From a virus, in the IMG/VR virus record IMGVR_UViG_3300025889_000538, positions 1 through 32,314 of that record: a stretch of 32,314 bases of DNA; one strand, 5' to 3'. The notes beneath the pieces were generated by a model that was given only the letters and a program-made list of their open reading frames with translations, was not told where the DNA came from and did not search any database. This document shows, piece after piece, positions 426 to 25,117 of this stretch (within the stretch, counting starts at the first letter, position 1; each line of letters opens with the position of its first letter). The position numbers and the translations under genes were made by a program.

Positions 426-538
426 TGTCCCGCCCGGTTTTTCCAGTTGCAGGCGGGGCAGCGGTTGTGGTGCCCCGGATGGTATTCGGTGCCGCATTGT
501 TCGCATTCGACGAAGACTTCTGGTGTGTCTGGTGTCAT
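422..538 (-). CDS. 38-residue zinc-ribbon protein
   Basis: This tiny gene fits exactly between the primase and HNH genes and overlaps each by four bases (ATGA junctions at 535-538 and 422-425), which implies translational coupling. The product begins MTPDTPEVFV. It has two CxxC pairs, C12/C15 (CEQC) and C27/C30 (CPAC), separated by a His-rich loop (H20, H23, H24), which is a compact zinc ribbon. The function is unknown. Stand-alone zinc ribbons next to primases can bind single-stranded DNA or template, but that is inference. The exact tiling by two overlaps, together with the cysteine pattern, is the main evidence that it is real. Confidence 0.7.
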   Translation of the reverse strand: MTPDTPEVFVECEQCGTEYHPGHHNRCPACNWKNRAGQ

Positions 539-2691
539 GGCCACCATTCTTCCTCGTTGTTGTCTGGGTGTTCCGTTGGCAGCCCTCGGTCCCCATCCCC
601 CCTATAGGGGGGATGGGGTGACCGGGATGGGCCATCCCAAGCCATCCCGTTACCCATCCCGTTTTCGATGTCCTTGTTTTTCAACGGTTTCTGGGGGCGT
701 GCCGTTTTTTGCTGTTCCATCCCGTCTGCGTGTTGGGATGGGCCCATCCCGTTTGACACACGGGATGAAATGTAGTTACGTTTTTGTGTGTCAACCAGGT
801 GTTCGACGGTCTCTGATCGTTTGTGTCTGCGGCGTTGCGCGGCGAACGCGGCGCTGCGAGCTGGCCTGTTCGGCATGTTTCTGATTTCGCGCCACATGGC
901 GTTGAGTCCGAGGTCGGGTTCGATGTTGGCGTTGTCGAGCCAGGTTTCTGCCTGGTTGGTTCCTGGCGGGTCGAGTGGTCGGTCGCTGTTCTCGAATCTG
1001 AGCGGATCGCGGTGTTCGACGAGTTTGACGGTTTCGGGTACCCATCCCATGCGTCGTTTTTTGGCTGCGAGGGTGATGCCGTCGTCGTGTCTGCGGAGTG
1101 CCCAGACGACGTCGACGTCGTCGTTTTTCGCTGATGAGCCGCGTTGTCCTTTGTCGGGGTCTTTCCCTTGGTGGTCGAGTCTGACGCTGGCTCGTCCTGC
1201 TGCTTTGAGTGCTTGCGCGGTCATTCTGTAGAACGCGCGGATGGTGTCGGCTTCGTTTTCGTCGCCTGCGACGGCGCGGCTGAACGTGTCGATGATCACG
1301 AGTTGTGCGTCGACGAGTTCGGCGAGTCGGTTGACGGCGATGCCGCCTTCTGGCGTGTCGCACGCGGGCAGGGTCGGCAGGAGCGCGTAGTGCAGGTATT
1401 CGAGTTCGGTGTTTTCTTCGTCGACGCCCATTTCTCCGAGTCGGTCGGCGAGGTCTGCTGGTGTCATTTCGTAGTCGAGATACAGCACGTGTTTTTGGTC
1501 GCGGCAGGCTGCTAGCGCGAGCGTGAGCGCGAATAATGATTTGCCTGTGCCGCCTGGCGCGTAGATCGCGTGTGCTCGTGCTTCGGCGATGACGGGTTCG
1601 ACGAGCCAGTTTTCGGTGTTGTGATCTGTTTCCCAGAAGGTGCGCCAGTCGAGGAGTTGGTCGACCAGGTTTTGGTCGTACGTGTCGACGTGTCCGGTTG
1701 GTTGTTCGAACGTGTCTGGTGGCGGCAGCAGGTCTTCGAGTTTGGCGGCGTGTTGGTTGTAGATGGTGTCGAGTTGGCGTGCTGCGTCGCTTCGGTTGCC
1801 GTGATGGTAGATGGCGGCGTATAGGCCGAATGCTGAGAGTGCCCATCCGCTGCCGTCTGCGGTGCTGTTTGCTGCTGTGATCCACGTGGACGGTGTTTCG
1901 GTGGTGAACACGACGAGCGGTCCGTCTGGTTCGTGTAGGACGGCTGAGTGGCCGTCTCGCGGGTTTTTCCCTGGTCGTGTCCATAACGTTTCGGTTTGTC
2001 CGGTGCGTGCGATGGTCCAGCCGATTTGTTGTAGTTGGTGATGCCAGTTCCATTCGTGTTGGAACGCGGTCCACATGTGATCGTCACGTTGTGTCATCGT
2101 GGTGTCATGGTGTTGCGGTGTCACTGGTTCGACGAGTTTGTCGAGTAGCCATTCGGGCGCGTCGGCAGGTTGGATGGTCCACGGTTCGCATCCTGGTTTC
2201 CATGTGTATTTGGCGCCGGTGGTCGGGTGGATTGACGGGCACGCGACGATTTGGCCGCCTGCGCCTCTGATGTCGAGTCCTGGTCCGAGCCGGTTACCGG
2301 TCGATTGTTGGTTGCGGATCGTCACGTCAGCTGGCGCGTTGAGGATGATGTGGAGTCCGCCGCCGCCTGTTTCTTGTGTCCAGGTGGCGGGTAGCGGTCC
2401 GTGTTGTTCGACGAGTTGTTTGAGCGTGCTGTAGCCGTCGTGGTCGTGTGTGTCGACGTCGATGGCGAACAGGTTGCGGCCGTCTGGTTGTGGTCCGAGC
2501 GCGAGTCCGATGCCGTGATCTGGCATTTGGTGCCACCACGTGTTGATTTGGTCGTGGTCCACGGTTGCTGCTGTTTGCCAGGACGGGATAGGCGGATGCT
2601 TTTTCCCTGGTGTGATCGGGATGACTCTGATTCCGGCGCCGGTGTACGCGAGCGCATAGTCGAGAGCTGTTTCTGGTGTCATTGTGGTCAT
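535..2691 (-). CDS. Bifunctional prim-pol primase / RepA-like helicase
   Basis: This 718-residue replication protein would prime and unwind phage DNA; no phage DNA polymerase is visible. Residues about 10-180 form an archaeo-eukaryotic primase (prim-pol) domain, with the metal-binding AIDVDTHD (D78, D80) and the GGGGLHIIL strand (H114). Residues about 345-560 form a RecA-fold ATPase, with Walker A APGGTGKS (379-386), YLDYEM near 405 and the Walker B strand VIIDTFSR near 465, as in RepA/AAA_25 helicases. The C-terminal 100 residues are basic, low complexity and probably disordered, and their DNA contains an iteron cluster. The ATG at 2691 overlaps the upstream stop by four bases; ATG 2682 is an alternative. 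Fused prim-pol/helicases are common in phages and plasmids. Confidence 0.9.
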   Translation of the reverse strand: MTTMTPETALDYALAYTGAGIRVIPITPGKKHPPIPSWQTAATVDHDQINTWWHQMPDHGIGLALGPQPDGRNLFAIDVDTHDHDGYSTLKQLVEQHGPLPATWTQETGGGGLHIILNAPADVTIRNQQSTGNRLGPGLDIRGAGGQIVACPSIHPTTGAKYTWKPGCEPWTIQPADAPEWLLDKLVEPVTPQHHDTTMTQRDDHMWTAFQHEWNWHHQLQQIGWTIARTGQTETLWTRPGKNPRDGHSAVLHEPDGPLVVFTTETPSTWITAANSTADGSGWALSAFGLYAAIYHHGNRSDAARQLDTIYNQHAAKLEDLLPPPDTFEQPTGHVDTYDQNLVDQLLDWRTFWETDHNTENWLVEPVIAEARAHAIYAPGGTGKSLFALTLALAACRDQKHVLYLDYEMTPADLADRLGEMGVDEENTELEYLHYALLPTLPACDTPEGGIAVNRLAELVDAQLVIIDTFSRAVAGDENEADTIRAFYRMTAQALKAAGRASVRLDHQGKDPDKGQRGSSAKNDDVDVVWALRRHDDGITLAAKKRRMGWVPETVKLVEHRDPLRFENSDRPLDPPGTNQAETWLDNANIEPDLGLNAMWREIRNMPNRPARSAAFAAQRRRHKRSETVEHLVDTQKRNYISSRVSNGMGPSQHADGMEQQKTARPQKPLKNKDIENGMGNGMAWDGPSRSPHPPYRGDGDRGLPTEHPDNNEEEWWP
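591..767. repeat. Iteron-like repeats and palindromes; candidate replication origin
   Basis: CCATCCCGT occurs as direct copies at 642-650, 654-662, 717-725 and 744-752. Related inverted copies (GGGATG core) lie at 624-630, 735-742 and 760-767. Three palindromes are built from the same core: 12-base arms CCCCATCCCCCC and GGGGGGATGGGG around TATA (591-618), GGGATGG-G-CCATCCC (624-638), and GGGATGGG/CCCATCCC (735-750). T-rich stretches on the plus strand lie between them (661-716). All of it is in the coding sequence of the primase tail (about residues 642-700), as the lambda origin lies within gene O. The repeats are directly visible; the origin role is inference. Confidence 0.55.
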
Positions 2692-3485
2692 GCGAGTTGT
2701 TCTGAGAGCCAGGTTTCGTGGTTGTCTGCGGCGACGACGGGTTGTCCGAGCAGGATGCGACGGCAGCGTTCGCTGGTTTCGTTGATCGGTCGATCGTCAA
2801 ATAGATGTTCGGTGTAGTGGTGTTGGCTGTTGTCTGTGCATGCGACGGCTTGTTCGAAGTCGTGTTCGTACAGGTGCATGCTGCCGATCGTGTGTGTGTA
2901 GGTACCGAGCGCGATGCCGAAGTGTGCGGCTATTGCTGATTGCAGCGTGATGAACTGCACAAGGTCGTACGGCAGTCCGAGCCACACGTCGTTGCTTCTC
3001 ATAACGGTTCTGGCGTGCAGTTTGTTGTTGCGAATCATGTATTGCAGCGCGATGGTGCACGGGATGTCTTTTTTGTCGCGGTTGAGGTCGGTCGCAGAGT
3101 CGTAGATGGTGAGTACTGCTTGTCTGCTGTCGCGATCGCGTTCCAGGAGTTTTACGAGGTCGTCGAGTCGGCCGGAGATCCGGTTGCCGTACGCTCCGTG
3201 AAACGTGCCGTTGTCTGTGTAGTTACGGAACGCGCGTACACGGTCGGTGACGGCTTCTGGCACGCTGATTTGGCCGACAAGTTGGAGAGCTTCGAGCGCG
3301 GAGATCGCGTGGTTGAGCTTGCGTCCGTCGATGTCGATGCGGATGCTTGCCGGGTAGGTGACGGTGAACTGGTGATTGAGCAGTTCACGTGTTTGTTGTC
3401 CGCGCGGTGATGTTTCGGTTCCGTGCATGTACAGATCGTTGATCGTTCCGATGATCGCTTCGCCTGGTGTTTCGTACGTGGTCAT
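2688..3485 (-). CDS. Thymidylate-synthase-family enzyme, probable dCMP hydroxymethylase
   Basis: This 265-residue protein of the ThyA superfamily transfers a one-carbon unit from methylene-tetrahydrofolate to C5 of a pyrimidine nucleotide. The catalytic Cys is C143 in IPCTIALQY. The phosphate-binding region reads MRSND (162-166), as in T4 gp42 dCMP hydroxymethylase, where ThyA typically has QRSCD. The residue that sets base specificity, Asn in ThyA (LPFN), is Asp here (LPYD, D174), the dCMP-type choice. HLYEHD (204-209) matches the HLY motif of ThyA. Prediction: 5-hydroxymethyl-dCMP (or 5-methyl-dCMP) from dCMP. It is coupled to the kinase upstream and the primase downstream by four-base overlaps. 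A plain thymidylate synthase is the alternative, but the residue pattern argues against it. Confidence 0.75.
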   Translation of the reverse strand: MTTYETPGEAIIGTINDLYMHGTETSPRGQQTRELLNHQFTVTYPASIRIDIDGRKLNHAISALEALQLVGQISVPEAVTDRVRAFRNYTDNGTFHGAYGNRISGRLDDLVKLLERDRDSRQAVLTIYDSATDLNRDKKDIPCTIALQYMIRNNKLHARTVMRSNDVWLGLPYDLVQFITLQSAIAAHFGIALGTYTHTIGSMHLYEHDFEQAVACTDNSQHHYTEHLFDDRPINETSERCRRILLGQPVVAADNHETWLSEQLA

Positions 3486-3988
3486 GTGGGCAGTGTTCCT
3501 TGTAGGTCGTCGATTGTCATTACGGGTATGTGTGTCGCTTCGGTTCGTCCGGCGATGTCAACGAATCGTGCTTGTGCCCAAGCGATGCTGGTGAACGTGT
3601 CTTCTTCGCCGCGTTGCGCGAGTGTGCACGCGATCTGGTCCACTGGTCGGGTGACGACGATGATCGCTGCTCCGATTTCTACGAGCATGCGGGTGCATCG
3701 TTCATAGTCGTCCCATTCGTCGAACAGTGACGGTCGGTCGAATACTTCGGGCCAGACGAGTTCTCCGAGGTGCCATCGGTCGCAGATGATCGGTCGATCG
3801 GCGACTACTGGCAGCACGTATTCGTCGAGCCAGTCGTCGTGCACCGGTGCTTCAGCGTGCAGGTATCTGGCGCCGTATGTTGCCGCGTACCGTTTGCAGA
3901 ACGTTGTTTTGCCTGTCGCGTCTGCGCCTTCGACGATGAGGATCGGCGCTGGTGCTTGCGCGGGCGCGAAGCTGGTCATGTCAGCCAT
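3482..3988 (-). CDS. P-loop deoxynucleoside monophosphate kinase
   Basis: This 168-residue P-loop kinase resembles thymidylate kinase and other dNMP kinases. Walker A is EGADATGKTT (about 20-29). A CDRWHLGE stretch follows in the position of the DR(Y/W) motif that contacts the acceptor nucleotide, and VVTRPVDQ follows the Walker B-like strand. It lies between the dCTPase/dUTPase and hydroxymethylase-like genes, so the likely substrate is the modified dNMP (as T4 gp1 phosphorylates hm-dCMP), with dTMP the conventional alternative. The ATG at 3988 was chosen because it has a GAGG 9-10 bases upstream and overlaps the previous stop by eight bases; a longer open frame upstream looks like a shadow. 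ATG 3979 is possible. Confidence 0.75.
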   Translation of the reverse strand: MADMTSFAPAQAPAPILIVEGADATGKTTFCKRYAATYGARYLHAEAPVHDDWLDEYVLPVVADRPIICDRWHLGELVWPEVFDRPSLFDEWDDYERCTRMLVEIGAAIIVVTRPVDQIACTLAQRGEEDTFTSIAWAQARFVDIAGRTEATHIPVMTIDDLQGTLPT

Positions 3989-4400
3989 TGCACGTGTCCT
4001 CGGTGCATGTGACGTCAGGGTCGTCGAGCGCGCGTCCGCAGCTGGCGCATTTGCCGGTGATCCCGTCGTATCCGGCTTGTTGTCTGGCAGCGTTGAGCGC
4101 GTTTTTTTCCAGGTAGCGTCCGGCGATTTCGGTCGGGTTGGCACCGGCGACGAGCATCAGGTTGACGAGGAAGTGCAACGCGTCGATGAGTTCGTTCAGG
4201 TACGCGTCGCGGTTGAAGTGTCGTGACGTGGCCCACGGTTTCCAGCCGGTTTCTGCGAGCGCTTCGTGTAGTTCGTCAGTCAACGCGGTTGTCATGTCGA
4301 CGATGTATCTGCGGCGGTCTTCGCCTTCCAGGGTGGACGGGTCGACTCCGTACGATCTGGTTTGCAGTTCGAGTTGTTTCTCGAAAATCATTGCGAGCAT
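3981..4400 (-). CDS. dCTPase/dUTPase-like (gp56/MazG superfamily) with Cys tail
   Basis: This 139-residue all-alpha NTP pyrophosphatase likely hydrolyses dCTP and/or dUTP to the monophosphate. The first helix motif DELHEAL (E43, E46) and second NELIDALHF (E70, D73) supply the metal ligands. The stretch from ELID to the GY at 110-111 closely parallels T4 gp56 (ELVDIFHF, then KN, N, ARQ and GY), which removes dCTP so that only the modified nucleotide enters DNA. Residues 118-137 add four cysteines (CASC, then C132 and C137), a possible zinc knuckle that I do not know from gp56. The start has a strong ribosome site (AAGGAGACTGCCCC before ATG) and overlaps the deaminase stop by 13 bases. Confidence 0.75.
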   Translation of the reverse strand: MLAMIFEKQLELQTRSYGVDPSTLEGEDRRRYIVDMTTALTDELHEALAETGWKPWATSRHFNRDAYLNELIDALHFLVNLMLVAGANPTEIAGRYLEKNALNAARQQAGYDGITGKCASCGRALDDPDVTCTEDTCNG

Positions 4401-4819
4401 GGGGCAGTCTCCTTGGTCAGTTGGATGCGGAACGTGTCCGCGATTTGGTTGATGTGATTCGCATCATACGTTGCCGCGTCAAGTTCGTGCACATAGTGAA
4501 CTCGAGCGATGCGGTATGCGGCGATTGTTTTCAAGCATTCGTGGCACGGCAGATGGGTGACGGCGAGCAGTCCGCCGGCGGTGTCTGCTGTTGTGCAGTA
4601 TCTGAGCGCGTTCAGTTCGGCGTGCAGCACGTGCGCTCGTCGTTGGTCGCGGTTCGTCCAGTCGATTTCGATTCCTGGTGGCGCACCGTTGTATCCGACT
4701 CCAGCGACACTGTTGTCTGGTCGCAGGATGCACGCGCCGACTTTGAGCCACGGGTCTTCTGATCGCGCGGCTGCTGCTTCAGCTATCGCAAGCGCGTATT
4801 CAGGCCATGACGGTCTCAT
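4388..4819 (-). CDS. Deoxycytidylate (dCMP) deaminase
   Basis: This 143-residue zinc enzyme of the cytidine deaminase superfamily converts dCMP to dUMP. It shows the HAE motif (H66, E68) and PCHEC (91-95), which supply the zinc ligands and the proton-shuttling Glu. VGYNGAPPG near residue 41 is typical of dCMP deaminases. It would supply dUMP for thymidylate while lowering the dC pool, the role of T4 cd. The ATG at 4819 forms an ATGA overlap with the methyltransferase stop; an in-frame ATG at 4843 would add eight residues without a better ribosome site. The length is typical for the family. Confidence 0.85.
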   Translation of the reverse strand: MRPSWPEYALAIAEAAAARSEDPWLKVGACILRPDNSVAGVGYNGAPPGIEIDWTNRDQRRAHVLHAELNALRYCTTADTAGGLLAVTHLPCHECLKTIAAYRIARVHYVHELDAATYDANHINQIADTFRIQLTKETAPCSQ

Positions 4820-5976
4820 AGCGGCAGTCGCTGTTCGAGCCATGTCGGTTGTTTCCTGACGTCGATCACGTATTCGCGGTCTCCGATCTGGTCGCCCTGG
4901 TTGCTGCCTGGTTGTCCGTTCAAGCTGGCGGCTGCCCAGTCAGCGATCCATCGTCCTGACTTGTACGGGATGCCTTTACCGAACCATGCTTGTCCGTTTA
5001 CTCCTGCGTCGACAGCGGGTTGAATTGTCCATCGATCGGGGAGTCCCATGATGCGAGCCGCTTCGCGGTACGTGAAACAGCGAGGCAGCACCGGATGCAC
5101 GTTTTCACTTGACGCGTATTGTCTAAGCACGCGAGCTGGTTTGTCATAGTTCCATCGTCGAGCCGCGTACATCGACGTGCGCGAGTCGACTCCTGGTTTC
5201 TCGTTGTTCCATGTGTCAAGGGTGACACCAGCTGCTTGTGCTCGCAGCCATGCTTCTCCTGCCGGTTCATCCGGCAGCCATTCAGCTTTCGCGGCGAGTT
5301 CAGCGAGTCGTACGGCTCGCGGTGTTGGCGCTACATGGTGACCGTCAACTGATCCGATCGGTTGTTCTTCCAGGTCGCCGATGGCGTCACGTAACGTGAG
5401 CAGTTCAGCGATTTCTGGTTGTTCGATTCCGAACGGGACGGTCGACGCGACAAAGAAGTAGCGGTTGCGTTCTGCGTATCCTCCGAGCGTCAGGTTGTTG
5501 TGCAGGACGTGATGCAGCGTGTATCTGCGTCCGGTGTGGAACTCTAAGTGTTCTCGCAGGTTGCGCATGAGTTCGCGTCCGGACGTGTATGCGCCGGTCA
5601 CGGACTCGAACACGACGATCGCTGGTTCGCACGCTGCCGCATAGTCGATCAGGTTCCACATGCCCTGGTTCGCTGGCGAGTCGATACCTCGGTATCCGAC
5701 GCGTTCTCCGTTCTCGTCGCGTTTGTTGACGCATGTTGATAGCCCGGAGAATCCTGAGCAGGCAGGGTTGCCGAACACGAGATCCGCTGTTTCAGCCTGC
5801 CAGTTGTCCGGTTCGTCTGCTTGAATGTCGGTTGTTTGCAGCAGGTCCAGGTTGCCGACATACATCGGCAACCCGAACCCGGCTGCAGCTTCCCGTTTCG
5901 CAATCAGATCGAAACCTGCGTCTTTGACAGCGAGCGCGAACGTTCCGCCGAACGTTTGGCAGTCGATCGCGCGCAT
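4816..5976 (-). CDS. Diverged C5-cytosine DNA methyltransferase
   Basis: This 386-residue SAM-dependent enzyme would methylate C5 of cytosine in DNA. Motif I is the N-terminal FGGTFALAVKDAGF. The catalytic loop reads FGNPACSGFS (C73) instead of the usual PPCQ. Motif VI is VFESV (Glu present, Asn replaced by Ser), motif VIII is AERNRYFFV, and the C-terminal YREAARIMGLPDRW plus GKGIPYKSGRWIA correspond to motifs IX-X. The target-recognition region is short. Such variant C5 enzymes occur in phages and can start hypermodification when paired with a TET-type oxygenase, but I see no TET gene here. It follows the SSB-like gene by one base and overlaps the deaminase by four, so it sits in the nucleotide-modification operon. 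Confidence 0.8.
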   Translation of the reverse strand: MRAIDCQTFGGTFALAVKDAGFDLIAKREAAAGFGLPMYVGNLDLLQTTDIQADEPDNWQAETADLVFGNPACSGFSGLSTCVNKRDENGERVGYRGIDSPANQGMWNLIDYAAACEPAIVVFESVTGAYTSGRELMRNLREHLEFHTGRRYTLHHVLHNNLTLGGYAERNRYFFVASTVPFGIEQPEIAELLTLRDAIGDLEEQPIGSVDGHHVAPTPRAVRLAELAAKAEWLPDEPAGEAWLRAQAAGVTLDTWNNEKPGVDSRTSMYAARRWNYDKPARVLRQYASSENVHPVLPRCFTYREAARIMGLPDRWTIQPAVDAGVNGQAWFGKGIPYKSGRWIADWAAASLNGQPGSNQGDQIGDREYVIDVRKQPTWLEQRLPL

Positions 5977-22568: not shown

Positions 22569-23212
22569 CAGGCGACCTGAACTTGTTCGCGTCTGTACGG
22601 AGCTAGTAGCGCCATAGCTACCGGATGCATTGCTTGCCGGAGTCGCATGATGCCGATGTCGCCGAAGCCGGCGATACCGAGCGGAGCGTCAGCTGACTTG
22701 AAAATCGACACGCCCTGGATTTGCGCTGCCTGTTCGACGGGATGCGGAAGATAGTCGTTGGCTGCATCAGGGTTCGCCCATCCCCATCGCGCGGTGATCT
22801 GCACGAGTGCTTGTCCGTAGTTGAACGGGAACTCGCGAGCGTTGATCGCTCTGATACGTGTGTACGGCCAGTTCTGTCCGCCCAGTTTGCCGTTGAGCGG
22901 TTCGAGTTGATAGTCAGCAGCGTTCCAGGTGGTCTCGAATACGCCGTCGTCGTCTTCGTCGGTTTTGATAATCAAACCAGTCGCTGTCGAAATATCGTCG
23001 ACTTCAACAAGCCACGGTGTCGACGCAACGAACGTTCTTGCCGTAGCGGTCGCTTGTTGCACGAAATGACGATCGCAGTACGCTTGCACCATCTGCGTCG
23101 CAGCGTCTGCAGCGAGGGTGAGACGGTTGTCGTCGGTCGTATCGGCGACGGCGATACCGAGGATTTCTTTCAGATCGTCTTCGGTGACGAGTCGATCAGT
23201 GAGATGCGCCAT
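22568..23212 (-). CDS. Head-tail connector (gp6-like adaptor)
   Basis: This 214-residue protein begins MAHLTDRLVTEDDLKEILGI, a helix typical of gp6-type adaptors. It continues with LAADAATQMVQAYCDRHF and a beta region (YQLEPLNGKL, PYTRIRAINAREFPFNYGQA, ITARWGWANPD) ending in a helix, the pattern of HK97 gp6/SPP1 gp15 adaptor proteins. It begins inside the end of the methyltransferase gene (17-base overlap), and CAGGGA precedes the ATG. A frame opening 12 codons upstream is less likely. Confidence 0.75.
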   Translation of the reverse strand: MAHLTDRLVTEDDLKEILGIAVADTTDDNRLTLAADAATQMVQAYCDRHFVQQATATARTFVASTPWLVEVDDISTATGLIIKTDEDDDGVFETTWNAADYQLEPLNGKLGGQNWPYTRIRAINAREFPFNYGQALVQITARWGWANPDAANDYLPHPVEQAAQIQGVSIFKSADAPLGIAGFGDIGIMRLRQAMHPVAMALLAPYRREQVQVA

Positions 23213-23714
23213 GTTCAGTCCCTGGTTTGTACGCGACGCAGCGCACATCTGCTGGTCGGCGCTGCCGGTCTACAATGTACTCGACGAAGCCTGCCTCTAC
23301 GAGCCAGCTTGTCAACTCGTTCGGATCAATGTTGCCGTAGTATTCTCCGGCTCTGACCGCTCGGCCGTCGATCGCTGAATGAGGTGCTCGTCCTGGTCCT
23401 GCAGCGGTAGCGATAAACATGCCGCCTGGTTCAAGCATGTCGATCGCAGCTATACAGATTTCGCGAGCGTTTTCAGCGTGTTCAAGCATTTCGGTTGTCA
23501 CAACGCAAGCAGCTAACCGGTGCGGTCGGAATAACGCGGCGTCACACACGATGTCGACGTTCGGTCCTGGAACAACATCCACACCGACGTATTCTTCGCA
23601 ATCAAATAAATGTTTGATACCGCCGTTCACATCGCATGATCCGAGTTCGACAACGAGATCGAACTGTTTGCCGGTCACATGATCGCGCACCCAACGTTCT
23701 GCTTGTTCATGCAT
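23196..23714 (-). CDS. Class I SAM-dependent methyltransferase
   Basis: This 172-residue Rossmann-fold methyltransferase has motif I VVELGSCDVNGGIKHLF (about 21-37). GVDVVPGPNVDIVCDA corresponds to the acidic loop and motif II, and the motif IV/V region is TTEMLEHAENAREI and MLEPGGMFIATAAGPGR, the arrangement of methyltransferase-11/-25 type enzymes. The substrate is unknown. It follows two glycosyltransferases in one operon, so it may cap or modify the sugar they add. It overlaps the upstream stop by eight bases. Confidence 0.8.
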   Translation of the reverse strand: MHEQAERWVRDHVTGKQFDLVVELGSCDVNGGIKHLFDCEEYVGVDVVPGPNVDIVCDAALFRPHRLAACVVTTEMLEHAENAREICIAAIDMLEPGGMFIATAAGPGRAPHSAIDGRAVRAGEYYGNIDPNELTSWLVEAGFVEYIVDRQRRPADVRCVAYKPGTEHGASH

Positions 23715-24369
23715 GACGATGTTTCCTTCTCATCCAAAGCTGTTGATCGGCGGTTGATCCTCGTTGCCCCAGCCGATATACGTCGTCATCCGCGCCTTTG
23801 TTCCACAGCGGATGCAAGTGTTCGATGATTGCGTTTTCGGCGTAAACGAACTGGCTTGCTCGTTTAGCTACCATTGTCCATTCGTTGTCGACAAACCAAT
23901 GCGTATAGCCTTCGTGGCAGACAGTTGATGCTCCATCGAATGATGCTCCGTGATTATCGATCCAGGTTCGTCGAATCATCGGATGCGTCGCGTGTAGTCC
24001 GAGCATGACGGCTCGGTTACCGAGATCATTTGTTGACACGAACGAGTATCGATCGCCTGCTGCTTCCAAAGCTGCTTCGCGCCAACCTGGATGAAACATC
24101 ACGTCGTCGCCAATAAACAACAACCAGGGCTCATCTGTTTCCCTGTATCCCAGGTTGCATTTCGTCGCGAACGTTTTCGATTCCGAATAGTTGACGATCA
24201 ACTCGCAGTCCTCGTTGCGCATCACTGCTTCGAGTTCTTGTTCGTCGTCGTAGTCGACAACGAAATAGATGCGAGCTTTCGCTGTGCTCGCTAGCAGCGA
24301 TTCGACTAGCGGGTCAACATTCTGCGGTCGGTTCATGACCGGAACGATGACAGCGACGTCAATCAACAT
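23707..24369 (-). CDS. GT-A family glycosyltransferase 2
   Basis: This 220-residue protein begins MLIDVAVIVPVMNRPQNVDP, the N-terminal nucleotide-binding start of family-2-like glycosyltransferases. LLFIGDDVMFHPGW (about 83-96) carries the acidic GDD in the DxD position that binds the metal and sugar nucleotide. WFVDNEWT and EHLHPLWNKG lie in the acceptor half. ATG 24369 was chosen; the frame also opens at an upstream TTG, but that would lengthen the overlap with the first glycosyltransferase. It probably glycosylates a virion protein or DNA; see the findings. Confidence 0.82.
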   Translation of the reverse strand: MLIDVAVIVPVMNRPQNVDPLVESLLASTAKARIYFVVDYDDEQELEAVMRNEDCELIVNYSESKTFATKCNLGYRETDEPWLLFIGDDVMFHPGWREAALEAAGDRYSFVSTNDLGNRAVMLGLHATHPMIRRTWIDNHGASFDGASTVCHEGYTHWFVDNEWTMVAKRASQFVYAENAIIEHLHPLWNKGADDDVYRLGQRGSTADQQLWMRRKHRHA

Positions 24370-25117
24370 CGATCCGATCCAAGCGGTCGTAGACGCGTTC
24401 GTCAAGCCACAACGATTTCAGGTGACTTGTTTTGATTCCGGTGTGAACGTGAATCGGTATTTCGAGCGCGCTTGCTCTGGTGCACAACGACAGATCTTCG
24501 CTGATCCACGTGTTGATCGAACTGTTGAAAATCGGCGAGTACCAGGTCGGTCCATATTCCGCTTCGATTTTCTGAAACACTGATTTGTGAATCAGAACGA
24601 AAGCTGATCCTGTCGCGGCACAGTTCACGAGTTGGTCTCGCGGATATTCTTTGCTGACGGTGAAACCTTGATGTTCGCCGTTGTCGTACCAGTTGAAGAT
24701 CGTTGGCGCAGGTTGAACGAGCATGCCTCCGATACCGTCGACACCGACTTCACGCATCATGAAACAGAGACCACCAACGATCGGAGCTTTCTCAGGATCG
24801 GCGACTTCCATCAACCGGTCGATTGCGTCTGCTTCGAAACCCATGTCTGTGTCGAGCCACATCAACCAGTCGACACCTGGCATTTTGTGCGTGAACTGTC
24901 GAGCGGTGTCATTGCGAGCGGACACGATGCCGCCTGTCCCGTATTTGGTCGCGAGCCATCCGCCGCCGATCACTCGTTGTTTGTTCGCAACATCGTGCGC
25001 GATCAAAGCCATCAACGAAGCATGCCACGAGTGCGCGACTTCTTGACCGTGAACGTACGCGACGCAAACCTTGTCCGGAGTTTTCTTAGCGAACTCTCCT
25101 GGCTTGTTCTTCGCCAT
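24359..25117 (-). CDS. GT-A family glycosyltransferase 1
   Basis: This 252-residue protein has the motif order of a GT-A glycosyltransferase: YVHGQEVAHSWHASLMALIA near the start, ARNDTARQF, then VDWLMWLDTDMGFEADAIDR (about 82-101) with the DTD at 89-91 that binds metal and sugar nucleotide, then PIVGGLCFMMREVG. The second half has NCAATGSAFVLIHKSVFQKI and SEDLSLCTRA, typical acceptor-side elements. It overlaps the following glycosyltransferase by 11 bases and the preceding gene by one (TGATG). Confidence 0.85.
   Translation of the reverse strand: MAKNKPGEFAKKTPDKVCVAYVHGQEVAHSWHASLMALIAHDVANKQRVIGGGWLATKYGTGGIVSARNDTARQFTHKMPGVDWLMWLDTDMGFEADAIDRLMEVADPEKAPIVGGLCFMMREVGVDGIGGMLVQPAPTIFNWYDNGEHQGFTVSKEYPRDQLVNCAATGSAFVLIHKSVFQKIEAEYGPTWYSPIFNSSINTWISEDLSLCTRASALEIPIHVHTGIKTSHLKSLWLDERVYDRLDRIDVD

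Follow-up and report, generated by a model that had tools for sequence, protein, structure and literature searches.

Which nucleotide does the thymidylate synthase (TS)-family protein encoded by the virus fragment IMGVR_UViG_3300025889_000538 (IMG/VR) act on, and which reaction does it catalyse? The fragment is linear, comprises 32,314 bases (32.3 kb) and is referred to here as the window. Its gene for a TS-superfamily protein lies on the minus strand. The original prediction, which left the strand unstated, had assigned the protein to the deoxycytidine monophosphate (dCMP) enzymes by an Asn-to-Asp switch and an MRSND motif. From alignment, residue code, fold and conserved gene order we infer the substrate and the product, the activities of the surrounding cassette and the modification of the DNA. 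Very probably, this gene codes for a dCMP hydroxymethylase of the TS superfamily, and the phage DNA would then contain 5-hydroxymethylcytosine (5hmC) replacing much or all of the cytosine. This would place an enzyme of an established kind in a new phage lineage; confidence in the prediction is good.

Active-site residues of the window protein

The TS-superfamily assignment is supported by a match to PF00303 (E 2.4e-19), the catalytic C143 and the predicted fold. Four PHROG 'thymidylate synthase' families match the protein, phrog_5131 best (2e-41), and the best phmmer match in the PDB is the cytidine monophosphate (CMP) hydroxymethylase MilA (2.1e-25). Eight NCBIfam thymidylate synthase models match, and 0/8 exceed the cut-off (best 73.5 bits versus 174.55).

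The core alignment comprised 16 sequences, the window protein and 15 from named records. T4 gp42 was taken from NC_000866, SPO1 gp29 from NC_011421 and Escherichia coli ThyA from NC_000913; AXL1 gp63 and RB69 ORF048c were added later. T4 residue numbering follows PMC6400193. The residues named in the original prediction were all present: MRSND at 162–166, D174 as the final residue of LPYD (171–174) and C143, which lies within KDIPCT. Every alignment made pairs D174 with D179 of T4 gp42 and N177 of E. coli ThyA. An Asn at the base-binding position, named beforehand as evidence against a dCMP enzyme, did not occur in the window protein in these alignments. In T4, D179 sets dCMP specificity, and its exchange for Asn lowers kcat by as much as about 3600-fold (PMC6400193). 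E65 aligns with T4 E60. Position 144 is Thr in the dCMP type, His in TS and mostly Asn in deoxyuridine monophosphate (dUMP) hydroxymethylases. The acidic residue three positions before the catalytic Cys is present as D140; the equivalent T4 D145 activates the water for hydroxylation, is Leu in TS, and yields no product when changed to Asn (PMC6400193). The protein thus has Asp, Thr and Asp where a TS has Asn (177), His (147) and Leu (−3), and Asp174 where an SPO1-type dUMP hydroxymethylase has Asn.

The MRSND motif is less telling than had been proposed. T4 gp42 has it, but RSND also occurs in dUMP hydroxymethylases, for example as NRSND in SPO1 gp29, and N165 is present in 48/58 genes of the dUMP-hydroxymethylase seed set; MRSND was therefore dropped as the deciding motif. 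In the sequences compared, RSND is a mark of hydroxymethylases in general, and only its preceding Met goes mainly with Asp. Likewise, QRSCD holds for E. coli ThyA and is one version only: the Cys position is Ala in 57/80 and Cys in 7/80 ThyA-like viral genes. The label 'dCMP enzyme' is correct but incomplete. Asp alone points to dCMP and leaves the reaction unspecified, because the change of Asn177 to Asp in an ordinary TS switches the substrate from dUMP to dCMP and yields 5-methyl-dCMP (PMC8670742). The specificity Asp is common to dCMP hydroxymethylases, dCMP-methylase candidates and the flavin-dependent dCMP hydroxylase AfhB. In the best reading, D140, T144, M162 and D166 together narrow the Asp enzyme to a dCMP hydroxymethylase. 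In the comparison of Asp enzymes (DISCRIMINATING), the window sequence matches the column for dCMP hydroxymethylases at every compared position but that of T4 Ser94.

Residue code, tree and fold

Gene sets were obtained from IMG/VR contigs ranked by similarity to each query and are hence non-random. They comprised 80 window-like genes, 8 window-like genes found by other patterns, 80 T4-gp42-like genes, 80 ThyA-like genes and a dUMP-hydroxymethylase seed set of 59 records, of which 58 gave an open reading frame (ORF) and one did not. The window-like search pattern required MRS[NS]D, so M162 and N165 were constrained; positions 140, 144 and 174 were free. The code at 140/144/162/174 is D/T/M/D in 80/80 window-like genes and in 8/8 from other patterns. 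The D174 pattern is not due to chance, as the residue was absent from the search pattern. D/T/M/D is also found in 79/80 T4-gp42-like genes. The ThyA-like genes have L/H/Q/N (80/80) and never D/T/M/D (0/80). In the dUMP seed set, D140 is present in 58/58, and position 174 is Asn in 50, Asp in 7 and Lys in 1. The pairings are N144 with N174 (46), T144 with D174 (6), T144 with N174 (4) and N144 with D174 (1); M162 occurs in 6/7 Asp genes versus 3/50 Asn genes. The rule is not perfect: L287 and L290 combine Thr and Met with Asn, and L284 has Asp inside an Asn clade. In the MetaGPA study of 433 TS sequences, the residues most linked with modified cytosine were those at position 177, with Asn changed to Asp, and at position 147 (PMC8670742).

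Some genes deserve separate mention. The exception among the T4-like genes (L167, N/N/V/D) is on a contig holding two TS-family ORFs. A PW916 gene annotated as 'deoxyuridylate hydroxymethyltransferase' (L018:3280-4098) carries Asp, Thr and Met, the residues of the dCMP type. Nine bacterial genome contigs, mostly Actinobacteria (L326–L334), have D/T/M/D-type genes, two of them reading MRSQD; prophages or MilA-like clusters are candidate settings.

A tree of 126 dereplicated rows was calculated with columns 140, 144, 162–166 and 174 left out. It places the window protein in a supported group of five Asp rows, in agreement with the original view that the Asn-to-Asp change marks a dCMP enzyme. Asp requires 4 changes on this tree versus a shuffled mean of about 32. 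In this quick tree, 46/123 inner branches are open and the placement of the long branches AfhB, AXL1 and E. coli ThyA is unsure; ThyA-like viral rows were lost at dereplication, leaving E. coli ThyA as the sole ThyA representative.

The AlphaFold2 model, calculated from the window protein and ten viral relatives, has a pLDDT of 84.7 and a pTM of 0.89. Its best structural match is MilA (Z 25.6, root-mean-square deviation (rmsd) 2.6, 256 aligned residues), followed by AfhB (Z 22.7, rmsd 2.3, 213 aligned). Thymidylate synthases reach a Z of at most 20.2 (rmsd 2.9, 232 aligned). The 50 structural matches listed include no T4 gp42 structure, which is uninformative on the fold.

Nucleotide cassette and alternative activities

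The minus-strand genes from a C5-methyltransferase homologue through a primase-polymerase overlap or abut (Table 1). The order deaminase, pyrophosphatase, kinase, hydroxymethylase is conserved in 10/11 closest loci, L025 being without a deaminase in its stretch. A kinase homologue adjoins the hydroxymethylase in 11/11 closest loci, and a deaminase homologue is present in 77/80 window-like loci. T4 gp56, a dCTPase-dUTPase, matches the Pfam family of the pyrophosphatase (dUTPase_2, 2e-5). In podovirus ct3Et533, genes for a pyrophosphatase, a kinase, a 'pyrimidine hmase' and a deaminase lie together. Co-occurrence of the TS domain with dCMP deaminase and pyrophosphohydrolase was observed by MetaGPA (PMC8670742). 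As a control, the Asn-type relatives in LuckyBarnes and Montesquieu, with Asn at the specificity position as in SPO1 gp29, adjoin genes of the 5-hydroxymethyldeoxyuridine (5hmdU) type (PF18723 5-hmdU DNA kinase domain; thymine pyrophosphorylase annotations).

Table 1. Positions of the hydroxymethylase gene, its active-site codons and the adjoining genes in the window
Feature	Position	Strand	Basis
TS-superfamily pyrimidine hydroxymethylase, dCMP type (predicted)	3485..2688	minus	265 amino acids, one ORF without internal stop
D140 codon, three residues before Cys	3066..3068	minus	aligned to T4 D145, required for hydroxylation (PMC6400193)
C143 nucleophile and T144	3054..3059 (C143 codon 3059..3057)	minus	aligned to T4 C148, E. 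coli ThyA C146
MRSND, residues 162–166	codons 3002..2988	minus	alignment; MilA has Ala for S164, RB69 AfhB has Asn for D166
D174 codon, base-specificity residue	2966..2964	minus	aligned to T4 D179, E. coli ThyA N177
C5-methyltransferase homologue	5976..4816	minus	PF00145 2.6e-12
dCMP deaminase (predicted)	4843..4388	minus	PF00383 4.6e-18; phrog_174 2.5e-37
All-alpha NTP pyrophosphatase, dUTPase_2; predicted dCTPase/dUTPase	4400..3981	minus	PF08761 4.4e-13
P-loop nucleotide kinase, predicted (hydroxymethyl-)dNMP kinase	3988..3482	minus	168 amino acids from ATG at 3988; phrog_761 thymidylate kinase 4.5e-6
Primase-polymerase	2691..535	minus	downstream of the hydroxymethylase

The proposed reaction would start with the attack of C143 on C6 of dCMP. 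D174 would read cytosine, at its N3 and 4-amino side, in place of uracil. E65 may help methylene-tetrahydrofolate to give its one-carbon unit to C5, and D140 would activate water to turn the exocyclic methylene into a 5-hydroxymethyl group; tetrahydrofolate rather than dihydrofolate would be released. Among the cassette enzymes, the pyrophosphatase of the dUTPase_2 family may remove dCTP and feed dCMP and dUMP, the kinase may lift hydroxymethyl-dCMP towards hydroxymethyl-dCTP, and the deaminase may supply dUMP for thymidylate. The resulting phage DNA would carry 5hmC for much or all of its cytosine, as in T4. The phage probably disguises its DNA with a modified cytosine by the trick known from T4.

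An Asp enzyme may also be a dCMP methylase of the Xp12 type, in which a folate hydride reduces the methylene group and 5-methyl-dCMP is formed for 5-methylcytosine (5mC) DNA. The product of the Asn-to-Asp TS is in line with this activity (PMC8670742), and LPYD is also present in AXL1 gp63 (L324:16623-17564), from a phage related to the 5mC phage Xp12 (PMC9206674, PMC7653180). This relative stood in for Xp12 in the comparison. AXL1 gp63 reads N/P/L/D, with Asn three residues before and Pro directly after the Cys, whereas the window protein has Asp and Thr; the T4 D145N variant makes no 5-hydroxymethyl-dCMP (PMC6400193). We infer that AXL1 gp63 is a dCMP methylase, with N140 and P144 as the candidate residue code expected for methylases. 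In AXL1, a dihydrofolate reductase (DHFR) gene lies directly beyond the deaminase and adjoins the deaminase/TS pair, but DHFR was found in 0/1 window and 0/35 window-like records. DHFR is a weak indicator of a 5mC pathway, since T4 and phage G carry it as well (3/15 reference phages positive). A non-acidic residue at −3 and a DHFR partner are the traits of the Xp12 type as deduced from AXL1; with D140 and no DHFR in the window, a methylase is improbable. Asp174 as a local variant of an ordinary TS or dUMP hydroxymethylase is somewhat less probable still. The database name of the family, 'thymidylate synthase', the formation of dUMP by the cassette (deaminase, dUTPase family) and the Asp of L284 within an Asn clade would fit. 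However, Asp174, T144 and M162 each differ from both classes, the tree group of the window protein is all-Asp and supported, and the loss of kcat in T4 D179N indicates that the residue is not neutral (PMC6400193).

The nearest solved structure by sequence and by fold is MilA, so a hydroxymethylase for the ribonucleotide CMP has to be considered. The original prediction had asked for a comparison with this type. MilA prefers CMP via Ala176 and Lys133, and A176S/K133R abolishes CMP use (PMC5175136). The corresponding residues of the window protein are S164 and R121, which argue against CMP use, and its gene sits in a phage deoxynucleoside triphosphate cassette; CMP is a very unlikely substrate. 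For a flavin-dependent dCMP 5-hydroxylase yielding 5-hydroxy-dCMP, as AfhB (PDB 9iqc/9iqu), speak the second nearest fold and the Asp at the specificity site. In RB69 ORF048c, identical to AfhB over 123 residues compared, the motif is MRSQN, position −3 is Glu and Phe replaces Y206. The window protein has MRSND, Asp and Tyr instead, and the hydroxylase reaction is hardly conceivable for it.

Some observations weigh against a dCMP hydroxymethylase feeding full cytosine replacement. Ser94 of T4, counted in the hydroxymethylase signature by Park 2019 (PMC6400193), corresponds to Gly97 in the window protein (Gly97-Ala98-Tyr99), whereas the gp42 subfamily is defined by Ser or Thr at this place, two residues ahead of the Tyr. 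SPO1 gp29 has Ala there, and most of the aligned relatives have Gly; as an obligatory signature, Ser94 was dropped, being absent from both the window protein and SPO1 gp29. A C5-methyltransferase homologue is an odd neighbour if all cytosine is already 5hmC. No replicative DNA polymerase was recognised in the proteins scanned from the fragment, and no clear 5hmC-decorating enzyme was identified in the window. Two glycosyltransferase-like genes (23707-24405 and 24359-25117) were rejected as decorators of 5hmC: they lie among structural genes and have homologues in 0/80 window-like hydroxymethylase loci. Their minus-strand region (23196-25117), in which one of the two ORFs matches PF00535 (1.1e-8) and the other has no Pfam match, also contains a small ORF resembling an S-adenosylmethionine (SAM) methyltransferase by eye; the products may act on virion proteins.

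The C5-methyltransferase homologue and known systems

The C5-methyltransferase (MTase) homologue has PAC for PPC, ESV for ENV and GK for GN. Its model (pLDDT 89) has the C5-MTase fold with M.HaeIII as best match. PF00145 was detected in 37/80 window-like records (20/35 and 17/45), 14/35 T4-like, 6/26 ThyA-like and 1/50 Asn-type seed records (1/59 of all seed records). The Fisher test of window-like versus Asn-type records gave 5.9e-9, not adjusted for shared phage ancestry; counted by 80% hydroxymethylase clusters, the ratio is 17/26 versus 1/32 (2.3e-7), with shared ancestry not removed. PF00145 as such is not specific; what matters is the MTase clade. The T4-like partners (L355–L368) form a second divergent C5-MTase clade with CPCAGLS, GENAP, CQ for GN and Gln at 334. 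This clade is present in 14/35 T4-like records, from environmental phages, and in none of the records closest to T4.

In a reverse test, an alignment search provided 80 viral records with the closest relatives of the MTase homologue; a single-sequence pattern search for close relatives had found none. A TS-family gene is present in 49/80 records: 15 within the locus, 26/30 on the whole record and 8/35 of the remaining, mostly short records. Asp174 is present in 48/48 readable genes (L485 is incomplete), and Thr144 together with Met162 in 47/48 (exception L484). The test is partly dependent, as 10/49 records, matched by contig name, also belong to the window-like set, from which most of the MTase query was drawn. 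In 100 MTases (80 from these records and 20 partners from the window-like set), the nucleophilic Cys and the motif VI Glu are invariant, and position 334 is Lys in 99, with one gap. The clade departs from known motifs with PCS/PCA for PCQ and Ser/Cys for the motif VI Asn. Position 334 corresponds to an Asn in M.HaeIII and E. coli Dcm, to Asn304 of M.HhaI and to Arg350 of CmoX, which holds the carboxymethyl group of carboxy-SAM (PMC12783734).

It is possible, though doubtful, that the hydroxymethylase and the MTase-like protein form a hypermodification pair, with the hydroxymethylase acting first. The MTase-like protein would then be no plain methylase and would modify 5hmC in finished DNA: covalent attack on C6, loss of water from the hydroxymethyl group and attachment of a carboxylated partner bound through the Lys would create a new cytosine base. 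A 5hmC-directed reaction is chemically reasonable, because engineered M.SssI is able to link thiols with 5hmC (PMC7176277). In a milder form, the MTase would use carboxylated SAM, and its targets would be those cytosines left without a hydroxymethyl group. The CmoA model matched in 0/45 records; the same model exceeded its cut-off in only 1/14 control genomes. A literature search, with subscription papers outside its reach, found no report of a dCMP hydroxymethylase paired with a C5-methyltransferase, and the MetaGPA main text does not mention PF00145 or a DNA methylase (PMC8670742).

The residue code would provide a sequence rule separating TS, dUMP hydroxymethylase, dCMP hydroxymethylase and candidate dCMP methylase, usually all annotated as 'thymidylate synthase'. 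For the viral group headed by the window gene, the predicted presence of 5hmC in the DNA would matter for restriction, for resistance to CRISPR and for the sequencing of these phages. The widespread C5-methyltransferase-like partner of dCMP hydroxymethylases is a lead to a new DNA base.

Among known systems, SpCmoX carboxymethyltransferase (PMC12783734) shares with the MTase homologue the C5-MTase fold and a basic residue where M.HhaI has N304. It has SPPC and Arg350, whereas the homologue has NPAC (PAC/PPC in its clade) and Lys334; a CmoX identity of the 4816-5976 gene was therefore rejected. MilA shares Asp, MRxND and the closest fold with the hydroxymethylase, but differs in the residues selecting the sugar; deoxyribose is expected for the window enzyme. 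SPO1 gp29, a dUMP hydroxymethylase according to its record, shares Asp at −3 and RSND and differs by Asn at the specificity site, after the Cys and in place of M162. The MetaGPA TS homologues share Asp at 177, the change at 147 and the deaminase and pyrophosphohydrolase partners (PMC8670742); unlike on their contigs, no carbamoyltransferase was recognised among the window proteins scanned. T4 gp42 shares MRSND, the Cys nucleophile, the specificity Asp, the Asp three residues before and the Thr after the Cys. It differs by Ser94 and by its tree branch, and the window locus has a C5-MTase homologue and no glucosyltransferase beside the hydroxymethylase. Judged by its residues, the window enzyme is predicted to work like T4 gp42, but it falls outside the gp42 subfamily, on a separate branch and lacking Ser94.

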